Assembly: GCA_029258925.1 (NCBI GenBank) | Contig: JAPDJV010000001.1 | Span: forward strand, 73,885-124,115 | From: Thermoproteota archaeon | GTDB lineage: Archaea; Thermoproteota; Thermoprotei_A; EX4484-217-1; JAPDJV01 | Direction of reading: 5' to 3' | DNA: 50,231 nt | In this document: one piece after another, positions 45,437-47,987 of the stretch | Layout of the letters: every line of letters starts with the position of its first letter | Position numbering within the stretch: the stretch's first letter is position 1 | Translations under genes and position numbers: made by a program | The notes under the pieces: generated by a model | What the model was told of the DNA's origin: nothing | Databases searched by the model: none | Seen by the model: the letters and a program-made list of their open reading frames with translations, nothing else

Positions 45437-46006
45437 CTATAAATATTCTTCCTCGAGTCTTAGACACTCCAGATTTTTAAGTTTTTTGAAGATGTTTAGA
45501 ACAGCCTTGTATATTTCCTCCTCCTTTTTAGCTCCGGTTATAACCATTTTGCCTGAACTAAATATTAGTAGAACAACTTTAGGATCATCCATTCTATATA
45601 TTAATCCTGGAAACTGTTCAGGCTCATACATGCAATTTTCCAGTAGAAAAGCTGCTTTCTCCAAGTTGACCTCTACTCCCAGGTTAGCCGAAGCGACAAT
45701 GTTTTGAACTTGTACCTTAGGTCTTCCAGTAATTATAATTCCATGGTTTCTGAGGGATTTTATGATTTTTTTAACTGCTTTAACCAGTTCGTCAACACTT
45801 TTAGCTCCGGTTACAACCATTTTGCCTGATTTGAATATTAATGCAGTAACTTTAGGTCTGTCTAGTCTGAAAACAAGACCTGGAAACTGTTCCGGATTAT
45901 ACTCTACTCCGGGAACACTTCTCTCAATAGCATATAAATCTAGTGCCTGATCTAAGGAGACTGTGGAAACTATGTTCTCAACTCTTAGCGTAGGTTTTCG
46001 AGCCAT
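45437..46006 (-). CDS. tbp: TATA-box binding protein
   Basis: 189 residues. Two direct repeats of about 90 residues form the saddle: [20 protein letters not shown]...[20 protein letters not shown] and [20 protein letters not shown]...[20 protein letters not shown]. Short acidic C-terminal tail (RLEEEYL), common in archaeal TBP. Basal transcription factor that recruits TFB and RNA polymerase to the box A elements noted in this window. ATG 46006 with GGGGGAT upstream. Confidence 0.97.
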
Positions 46007-46536: not shown

Positions 46537-47289
46537 TTAAACTTTTAGTGAAGGCATTAATAGGGAAAGTTTAGGTAGCTCGAAGACTCCTATATCCTCG
46601 TCTACGATAAAGGGTATAGCCTCATTTATCAAACCAAACTTCCTTATTATTGGAGATAAATAGTTTTCTTTATCCAGTGAAATGTTGTTACCTGCCATGT
46701 AAACACTTAGCGCTGGAAGAACTATCAATGTTTTCCCAATGGCTAAAGGCATCTTTACTAGACAGGAGAATTTTGCTACGTAACCTACATCGTCTCGAAT
46801 TGAAATACTAGGATGTTCGTGACCTATTATTATAGTGTCAACATCGTCTAGCTTTTCACCTATCTCTTGATGACCATGAATTACTAGTATCTCGCCTAGT
46901 TGAAGGCTGTCGACATATCCAATACTTAAAGCTGAGGCAATTATCCCCAAATAATTGTCATGGTTTCCTCTTACGAAAACTATCTCACAATCATTGCTCC
47001 TTATCTTAGCCACAAGCTCTCTTATTTCCCCCCTTTCTTGGCGAGTTAATTTAGAAAAATCATTTTTAATGTCTCCATTCAGGATCACTCTGGAGGCTCC
47101 AGTATCTTTAATTGATTCAATTATACAATTAGATATCTTGGTAAATTGAATTTTTGGAAGAAACAACCCCTCGCTCATTGCAGATTCTTCAAATCCTAGA
47201 TGAAGATCTGAAACAACTAGTGTATCGTAGTCAGTCAAGTAGACAACCGGCCTTCCTGGAAGGACACGTATTCCTCTATGAATTTCCAT
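46537..47289 (-). CDS. Archaeal calcineurin-like metallophosphoesterase (SbcD-related)
   Basis: 250 residues. Motifs in order: LVVSDLHLGFE, ILNGDIKND, FVRGNHDNY, LVIHGHQEI and IIGHEHPS, a complete dimetal phosphoesterase site. The N-terminal RPVVYLTDYDTLVVSDLHLG form matches the archaeal SbcD-related family, often encoded near DNA repair helicases; no helicase is adjacent here. No signal peptide, so cytosolic. ATG 47289. Confidence 0.88.
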   Translation of the reverse strand: MEIHRGIRVLPGRPVVYLTDYDTLVVSDLHLGFEESAMSEGLFLPKIQFTKISNCIIESIKDTGASRVILNGDIKNDFSKLTRQERGEIRELVAKIRSNDCEIVFVRGNHDNYLGIIASALSIGYVDSLQLGEILVIHGHQEIGEKLDDVDTIIIGHEHPSISIRDDVGYVAKFSCLVKMPLAIGKTLIVLPALSVYMAGNNISLDKENYLSPIIRKFGLINEAIPFIVDEDIGVFELPKLSLLMPSLKV

Positions 47290-47342: not shown

Positions 47343-47388
47343 TGGCGGGCCCGCCGGGATTTGAACCCGGGACCTACGGGTTAAGAGC
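47343..47388 (-). tRNA. 3' half of trans-split tRNA-Lys(CUU)
   Basis: Read on the minus strand: G31, anticodon loop CTCTTAA with anticodon CUU, 3' anticodon stem CCCGT, variable AGGTC, T-arm CCGGG-TTCAAAT-CCCGG, acceptor CGGGCCC, discriminator G and encoded CCA. It lacks the acceptor 5' strand and D-arm. The missing part lies at 47772-47803. Upstream (47389-47409) is a leader containing 14 bases complementary to the trailer of the 5' half. TATA-like box at 47431-47441. Joined to the other half it gives a complete cloverleaf. Confidence 0.92.
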
Positions 47389-47395
47389 CTCGACT

Positions 47396-47409
47396 AGCTG
47401 GTCGACCCC
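47396..47409 (-). repeat. 14-base leader helix of the split tRNA (3' half)
   Basis: GGGGTCGACCAGCT on the minus strand, perfectly complementary to the minus-strand trailer at 47756-47769. The helix would bring the two half transcripts together and form the bulge-helix-bulge cut by tRNA splicing endonuclease. Confidence 0.9.
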
Positions 47410-47430
47410 GAGGGAGATATATGATTTATT

Positions 47431-47441
47431 GATTTAAAAAC
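47431..47441 (-). promoter_or_regulatory. TATA box of the tRNA 3' half
   Basis: GTTTTTAAATC on the minus strand, centred 26 bases before 47410. Transcription would start right at the 14-base leader helix, which supports independent transcription of this half. Confidence 0.65.
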
Positions 47442-47738
47442 TTTATGTAATATATGGGTTAGTTAAATTATCAAGTATTTTTATTTTTGAAATATGGTTC
47501 AGGGTAAGAAAACTAGATGAAATAGCAGGTTACATACTTTAACAAGGAAATAGTGGAGGGGATTTCTAATTTTAAGGGAGTCTCTACGTTAATCATTACG
47601 ATAGAATGAGTGTGGTCGGCTTCGAATTTTGTAACCTTAATGTTTTCTATCTAAAGTCTTAGTGTTTTGGTAATCAGCTATGCTGTTATGAGCAAAAATA
47701 TTGCTAATCGTTTAGAGTGGAGGGAACTACGATTTATT
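47442..47738. other. Spacer between the tRNA halves, no gene seen
   Basis: About 300 AT-rich bases. I find no open frame of note and no structured RNA. The 383-base distance between the exons is far longer than usual archaeal tRNA introns. Confidence 0.5.
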
Positions 47739-47743
47739 AAAAA
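47739..47743 (-). terminator. Oligo-T terminator after the tRNA 5' half
   Basis: TTTTT on the minus strand, 13 bases after the 14-base complementary trailer. Suggests that the 5' half transcript ends here and does not run into the 3' half. Confidence 0.5.
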
Positions 47744-47755
47744 TGATGTGGGAGA

Positions 47756-47769
47756 GGGGTCGACCAGCT
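47756..47769 (-). repeat. 14-base trailer helix of the split tRNA (5' half)
   Basis: AGCTGGTCGACCCC on the minus strand, the exact complement of the leader at 47396-47409, beginning two bases after position 30 of the 5' half. Confidence 0.9.
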
Positions 47770-47771
47770 GT

Positions 47772-47803
47772 CCGTCGCTCTATCCAGGCTGAGCTACGGG
47801 CCC
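47772..47803 (-). tRNA. 5' half of trans-split tRNA-Lys(CUU)
   Basis: Read on the minus strand: acceptor GGGCCCG, TA, D-arm GCTC-AGCCTGGATA-GAGC, G26 and ACGG (positions 27-30). It pairs with the 3' half in acceptor (GGGCCCG/CGGGCCC) and anticodon stem (ACGG plus G31 with CCCGT). Split at 30/31. TATA-like box at 47831-47840 predicts a start near 47809, six bases before the tRNA. A trans-split tRNA-Lys(CUU) is known from Staphylothermus. Confidence 0.92.
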
Positions 47804-47830: not shown

Positions 47831-47840
47831 TTTTTAAGTG
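47831..47840 (-). promoter_or_regulatory. TATA box of the tRNA 5' half
   Basis: CACTTAAAAA on the minus strand, centred about 26 bases before the predicted start near 47809. Confidence 0.55.
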
Positions 47841-47987
47841 ATATTTAATTTTATTCTTAATCAACACTAATCCTGAATATTACTGTAAATTTTAATTTAA
47901 TGTTCCTCACGGATTTGACCTAAAATGCCCAAAACGCTCTGTAGCGTTTAAATTCAAATGAAATGTATTAATAAAGCATTTTATAGT

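Follow-up and report, generated by a model that had tools for sequence, protein, structure and literature searches.

A tRNA-Lys(CUU) gene interrupted at position 30/31 in a Thermoproteota archaeon, with adjacent and probably separately promoted halves and an intron-bearing ortholog in a sister family

Split tRNAs have been explained either as relics of ancestral half-genes (the Di Giulio model) or as products of the late splitting of intron-bearing genes (PMC3218864, PMC4390854). Among the described cases, the tRNA-Lys(CUU) of Staphylothermus marinus and S. hellenicus is trans-spliced (PMC3218864), the two halves of the A. pernix tRNA-Asp, separated by a 121-nt gap, appear as separate transcripts on a northern blot (PMC3218864), and the intervening sequences of the split tRNAs of Caldivirga maquilingensis resemble introns of related species (PMC4390854). 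The locus described here lies in a 50,231-nt stretch of a Thermoproteota archaeon (assembly GCA_029258925.1, contig JAPDJV010000001.1, positions 73,885 to 124,115; the window), whose genome (G000: 1.75 Mb, 56 contigs, 98.4% complete) belongs to a different order from Staphylothermus. It contains a tRNA-Lys(CUU) interrupted between positions 30 and 31, which is probably the working tRNA-Lys(CUU) of this organism, split into two side-by-side halves with a promoter each.

The preliminary description of this locus had placed the split at 30/31, with an interval of 383 nt between the halves and a perfect 14-base helix, and direct reading of the sequence confirms this anatomy (Table 1). The 5′ half comes first and lies on the same strand as the 3′ half, and the joined halves give a 78-nt tRNA-Lys(CUU) ending in CCA, in which the acceptor, D, anticodon (ACGGG/CCCGT) and T stems are all present. 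For comparison, three genomes of the same order from a sister family were used (G001, G002 and G003), so that the order is represented by four genomes. The body of the 5′ half is identical to the intact Lys(CUU) of G002 and G003 save for one D-loop base, and the 3′ half stretch recurs in both genomes and in Staphylothermus. A canonical bulge-helix-bulge (BHB) motif of the hBHBh' form can be drawn at the joint, with h' formed by GAG22-24 and CUC32-34, a central helix of CGAC25-28 and GUCG, and bulges GG|A and AG|G. The central helix, CGAC/GTCG in the window gene, is CGGC/GCCG in Staphylothermus and many cis-intron genes, and its position-27 pair is altered on both sides relative to Staphylothermus. 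A single C.A mismatch separates the BHB from the 14-bp helix of trailer and leader. This helix is beyond chance: among 20,000 composition-matched pairs of 40-nt flanks, 11 complementary bases occurred in 0.02% and 14 in none. The trailer/leader duplex has z = -6.3, and the precursor with a shortened loop folds at z = -5.7. Judged by its sequence, the interrupted Lys(CUU) is real and functional-looking.

Table 1. Features of the interrupted tRNA-Lys(CUU), its neighbours and the three further interrupted tRNA genes of G000. The first twelve rows give window positions, with all parts of tRNA-Lys(CUU) read on the minus strand; the last three give contig positions in G000.
Feature	Location	Strand	Basis or remark
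5′ half of tRNA-Lys(CUU), GGGCCCGTAGCTCAGCCTGGATAGAGCGACGG, to position 30, 32 nt, ending at splice point GG|A	47772..47803	-	sequence
3′ half of tRNA-Lys(CUU), GCTCTTAACCCGTAGG...GGGCCCG, 43 nt, positions 31-73, anticodon CTT	47346..47388	-	sequence
CCA, genome-encoded	47343..47345	-	sequence
Leader end AGTCGAG: A facing C, GTCG pairing with positions 25-28 in the central helix of the BHB, AG belonging to the 3′ bulge	47389..47395	-	sequence
Trailer strand of the 14-bp helix, AGCTGGTCGACCCC	47756..47769	-	perfect complement of 47396-47409
Leader strand of the 14-bp helix, GGGGTCGACCAGCT	47396..47409	-	sequence
Spacer between the helix strands, 346 nt (trailer-leader gap), 31% GC, without recognisable gene	47410..47755	-	frame, motif and similarity searches
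TATA/BRE-like site for the 5′ half, ATATCACTTAAAAA, centred 34 nt upstream of the tRNA start	47831..47844	-	matrix score 6.5
Internal TATA/BRE-like site for the 3′ half, AAAGTTTTTAAATC, centred 28 nt ahead of the leader helix	47431..47444	-	matrix score 6.9
CATCATTTTTAAT with T5 run past the 5′ half trailer, possible terminator	47736..47748	-	sequence; T5 at about 47739-47743
Calcineurin-like phosphoesterase gene	46537..47289	-	Pfam PF00149; syntenic neighbour defining the orthologous locus
TATA-binding protein (TBP) gene	45437..46006	-	Pfam PF00352; second syntenic marker
tRNA-Ile(GAU), interrupted at 30/31, trailer-leader gap 319 nt	C8, halves near C8:45098 and 45483-45530		helix with one bulged base
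Initiator tRNA-Met(CAU), interrupted at 30/31, trailer-leader gap 263 nt	~C10:46964-47360		16-bp helix with one wobble
tRNA-Leu(CAA), interrupted at 37/38, trailer-leader gap 484 nt	~C8:13214-13820		long helix with one wobble

Neither ARAGORN nor Rfam at its gathering cut-off called a tRNA at this locus in the window, as is expected for so long an interruption. Rfam matches to tmRNA, T-box and mascRNA fell under the cut-off and were dismissed as chance-level or as tRNA-arm look-alikes. The read-through frames searched in the spacer gave no Pfam match to a homing-endonuclease remnant or LAGLIDADG frame, and a C/D-box RNA in the spacer was rejected because no box C motif was found there.

An intact Lys(CUU) gene elsewhere in the genome, which according to the preliminary description would make the halves relics, was not found in the assembly among 43 covariance matches and 59 T-arm motif matches or by direct search; this check covered the stretches around tRNA motifs, with the anticodons of the covariance matches read individually. 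Missing from the 43 covariance matches are Lys(CUU), Ile(GAU), initiator Met(CAU) and Leu(CAA), and all four were recovered as halves that are adjacent, on the same strand and with the 5′ half first. Their helices measure 13-16 bp. The 3′ half of Met(CAU) has an apparent extra 20-nt intron at 37/38, and the central BHB helix of Leu(CAA) contains a U.U mismatch. The four spacers have no mutual similarity, and a single insertion element common to them was rejected on this ground. In the Lys(UUU) of G000, the 30/31 position holds a short cis intron of the ordinary kind. In G001, the gap of tRNA-Ile(GAU) is only 42 nt long, with CTTAAATA inside.

It could be argued that the halves are dead relics or an assembly artefact, as an assembly of this contiguity and completeness could hide an intact copy in a gap, and tRNA 3′ fragments do occur in G000. 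However, neither half has a defect, the tRNA body that they form is complete, with compensating bases in the BHB, the assembly has no second Lys(CUU) gene, synteny at the locus is shared with three relatives, and three more essential tRNAs, the initiator included, are of the same design. This explanation is therefore regarded as hardly credible.

The claim that a TATA-like box precedes each half was examined with a 14-nt promoter weight matrix derived from the upstream regions of 41 G000 tRNA genes (consensus AAAATATTTAAATA; centre at a median of 35 nt upstream). Sites were found at the distances given in Table 1, with modest scores: that of the 5′ half is at the 22nd percentile of tRNA promoters, and the internal site is the best of 333 scanned gap positions. 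Taken as a single case, the internal promoter of Lys(CUU) is suggestive only. Position is more telling when several genes are considered together. In three of the four interrupted tRNAs of G000 the leader is preceded by the best site of the gap, at 28, 38 and 30 nt (P = 0.002 by position), the site of Ile(GAU), at 38 nt, being strong (score 11.5). Over ten informative long-gap tRNA genes from G000 and other genomes, seven have their best site 25-38 nt before the leader (P = 5e-6), where 3-27% would be expected per gene in a test that reads one strand only; six of eight remain when the homing-endonuclease cases described below are left out (P = 4e-5). The exceptions are Leu(CAA) of G000, the initiator Met of G001 and Lys of G033. 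The oligo-T run reported after the 5′ half is likewise present. Separate transcription of the two Lys(CUU) halves is likely from this evidence, and two transcripts joined by trans-splicing are inferred.

How long a cis-spliced tRNA intron can be bears directly on this reading. The preliminary description held 383 nt to be far above the normal length of archaeal tRNA introns, and the published range of 11-129 nt (Chan et al. 2011, PMC3218864) agrees, but tRNA insertions of about 0.5-1.1 kb with helices of 11-16 bp were detected in related genomes, so that the published range is no strict limit. The initiator Met(CAU) of G001 (C6:89800-94000) has an interruption of about 1 kb at 37/38 with an open LAGLIDADG-like frame (Pfam 22.1 bits, cut-off 22.5), and G020 (C7), from another order, has a homologue of this frame (E = 7e-21), likewise open and in an insertion of about 1 kb, at the same position of the same tRNA, with a perfect 14-bp helix; this is likely a mobile tRNA intron. 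In the Phe gene of G002 (C32), the interruption at 30/31 is a gap of 479 nt that holds a decayed LAGLIDADG-like frame (21.0 bits, cut-off 25) and has a 16-bp helix; at the same position the Phe gene of G003 carries a short cis intron with corresponding ends. These cases suggest a route by which a short intron can grow into a long gap. A literature search returned homing endonucleases in archaeal rRNA introns and no report of them in archaeal tRNA introns, which is not proof of absence.

Such insertions give substance to the view that Lys(CUU) is a single gene whose BHB intron, at 383 nt, is unusually long and is spliced in cis; the intron might be a decayed homing-endonuclease intron, and the TATA-like site would be incidental or weak. 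Several observations weigh against two transcripts and would fit this view. The order and strand of the halves, with a BHB at both intron ends, also suit a single gene; the relatives' long insertions with LAGLIDADG-like frames lie at 30/31 or 37/38; and in the sister G001 the intron of Lys(CUU) at 30/31 is a genuine cis intron and short. Perfect long helices also occur in endonuclease-bearing insertions that are possibly cis-spliced (Phe of G002, initiator Met of G020), and the 14-bp helix is thus not diagnostic of trans-splicing. The score of the internal site is middling, at the 27th percentile (p = 0.09 by score alone), and the opposite strand of the spacer scores higher with the same matrix (11.3), which weakens the strand specificity of the promoter evidence; the TTTAAA core reads identically on both strands. 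The TATA-like site of the G002 Phe gene falls within the decayed endonuclease frame, so that such sites can be by-products of AT-rich coding. Finally, Leu(CAA) of G000, although built alike, has no well-placed internal promoter, and only about half of the 5′ halves examined are followed by a T run. A long cis intron, although the main alternative, is nevertheless considered rather unlikely, given the clustering of promoter-like sites before the leader, the T5 after the trailer and the absence of a detectable endonuclease remnant from the frames searched. In addition, one related family has Lys(CUU) halves 111 nt apart in one genus (G033) and 88 kb apart in another (G018), and the A. pernix tRNA-Asp, with the same layout, is made as two transcripts (PMC3218864).

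A combination of both modes may also be envisaged, in which a weak internal promoter and read-through let cis- and trans-spliced tRNA coexist. The modest score of the internal site and the single T5 allow for read-through, and a low-abundance full-length RT-PCR product was obtained for the A. pernix tRNA-Asp (PMC3218864), but the A. pernix northern blot is without a full-length precursor, and coexistence is considered very unlikely.

If the halves are separately promoted, transcription of each would be driven by a TATA box of its own; the 5′ transcript would end at or near the T run with a trailer of about 20-30 nt, and the 3′ transcript would begin at or just before the GGGG of the leader. 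The 14-bp helix would then pair the two transcripts and create the BHB, which the tRNA splicing endonuclease would cut, the halves being ligated at 30/31. Two splicing-endonuclease paralogues (PF01974) are encoded in G000 and may make up the two-subunit (alpha2beta2) enzyme expected in a host with split tRNAs.

Comparison with the sister family strongly supports the earlier suggestion that this gene is an intermediate between a cis intron and a trans split. The order tRNA-Lys(CUU), phosphoesterase, TBP is the same in the window and in G001, G002 and G003. The Lys(CUU) genes of G002 and G003 are intact and intronless. That of G001 contains at 30/31 a cis intron of 27 nt, ATAGCTGGTTATTACCGGCTAGTCGAG; a second break, at 37/38, has 16 complementary bases in trailer and leader, and a TATA-like site lies 30 nt ahead of its 3′ piece. 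The ends of the G001 30/31 intron, ATAGCTGG...CCGGCTAGTCGAG, compare with ACAGCTGG...ACCAGCTAGTCGAG in the window, with 7 of 8 trailer and 13 of 14 leader positions identical, and among 56 cis introns compared this one is clearly the closest to the window ends. The simplest reading of these sequences is that the window split is a G001-type 30/31 intron opened up and that the G001 gene was broken at 37/38 independently; the intact genes of G002 and G003 would then be either intron losses or evidence that the intron is a gain common to the window and G001. In the proposed course of events, an ancestral short BHB intron at 30/31 would have been enlarged, its ends kept as trailer and leader, while its helix lengthened and the insert gained a promoter. 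This derivation from an ancestral 30/31 intron is better supported than separate transcription.

One locus fixed by synteny is thus found in three states: intact in two genomes, with a 30/31 intron and a 37/38 break in one, and opened at 30/31 in the window, where an internal promoter-like site is included. For Lys(CUU), these states of one orthologous locus favour an intron first and a split later and make the steps testable, and the window gene looks like an unusually good intermediate between an intron-bearing and a split gene. More tentatively, it is possible that the tRNA genes of this order are in transit from intron to split: short BHB introns would be enlarged, sometimes by homing endonucleases, and gain a longer helix and an internal promoter, giving adjacent split genes able to scatter later, with Lys(CUU), Ile(GAU), initiator Met and Leu(CAA) of G000 as intermediates and the sister ortholog as the starting state. 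The four adjacent-half tRNAs of G000, the initiator included, also show that essential genes escape tRNA finders in such lineages. Split Lys(CUU) at 30/31 and adjacent halves were each already known; their combination, the occurrence of four such genes in one genome and the orthologous intron-bearing counterpart are new relative to the papers found.

A scan of named genomes for GAGGCTCTTAACCCGTAGG gave 70 loci, most of them genes of Desulfurococcales, Bathyarchaeota and Thermofilaceae with a short cis intron at 30/31; in a minority the 5′ half is not nearby or lies kilobases away. In Pyrobaculum sp. WP30 (CP012158.1), tRNA-Lys(CUU) halves at 30/31 lie about 540 nt apart on one strand, with a T6 after the 5′ half, a well-placed TATA-like site before the 3′ half and a seeming further insertion in the T arm of the 3′ half; no split tRNA was reported in five Pyrobaculum species (Chan et al. 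2011, PMC3218864). On C50 of G003, a 231-nt gap interrupts a tRNA-Gln(UUG) at 37/38; its 5′ half is followed by a T-rich run, and AGAAAATTTAAAAG precedes the leader by 32 nt.

G000 has Pro(GGG) and Pro(CGG), but no Pro(UGG) was detected. A split form was sought, and only an unconvincing Pro-like 3′ fragment at C26:21948 was obtained; the gene may have fallen into a gap of the assembly, or it may be split into halves that are far apart. This fragment is one of several in G000 (the others being at C10:38708, C10:40205, C33:4873, C33:8748, C23:6331, C9:54158 and C10:15719); most are leaderless 3′ ends of Arg, Val and Leu tRNAs, and they are probably attachment-site remnants. Some have an upstream motif in common with fragments in G002.

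Among known systems, the trans-spliced Lys(CUU) of Staphylothermus shares with the window gene the tRNA, the 30/31 joint and the canonical BHB, and this parallel, drawn from the outset, holds: G037 and G016 sit at the published coordinates of the S. marinus and S. hellenicus genes (PMC3218864). The 3′ exons are near-identical, and the trailer/leader helix is 13 bp long against 14 bp in the window. In Staphylothermus, however, the halves lie about 4.5 kb apart with genes between them and the 3′ half upstream, whereas those of the window are 383 nt apart in gene order. That the window gene is itself the known Staphylothermus locus was rejected, since those loci are accounted for by G037 and G016 and the genome described here belongs to a different order. 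Acquisition of the gene from Staphylothermus by lateral transfer is disfavoured, as the 5′ exon, ..GGATAGAGCGACGG, fits the intact genes of its own order, ..GGTTAGAGCGACGG, and not ..GGTAGAGCGGCGG.

The split Lys(CUU) of Nanoarchaeum equitans is again the same tRNA with the same joint (PMC3218864, Table 1), but its halves are far apart and on opposite strands. The short cis introns at 30/31 of Lys(CUU) in Desulfurococcales, Bathyarchaeota, Thermofilaceae and G001 agree with the window in position and BHB, and differ in being cis-spliced and nearly all 13-35 nt long, with no room for an internal promoter. Caldivirga maquilingensis resembles G000 in having several split tRNAs, tri-split ones among them, in one genome, although several of its genes share half-transcripts between isoacceptors and mostly other tRNAs and joints are involved. 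The A. pernix tRNA-Asp resembles the window gene in its adjacent halves in gene order and its 14-bp helix, and its internal BRE/TATA has a promoter-like counterpart there; the start of its 3′ transcript, predicted 20-25 nt ahead of where the gap ends, is likewise comparable. It differs in its 37/38 joint, its shorter gap, the northern-blot demonstration of its separate transcripts and its occurrence as one such gene per genome.
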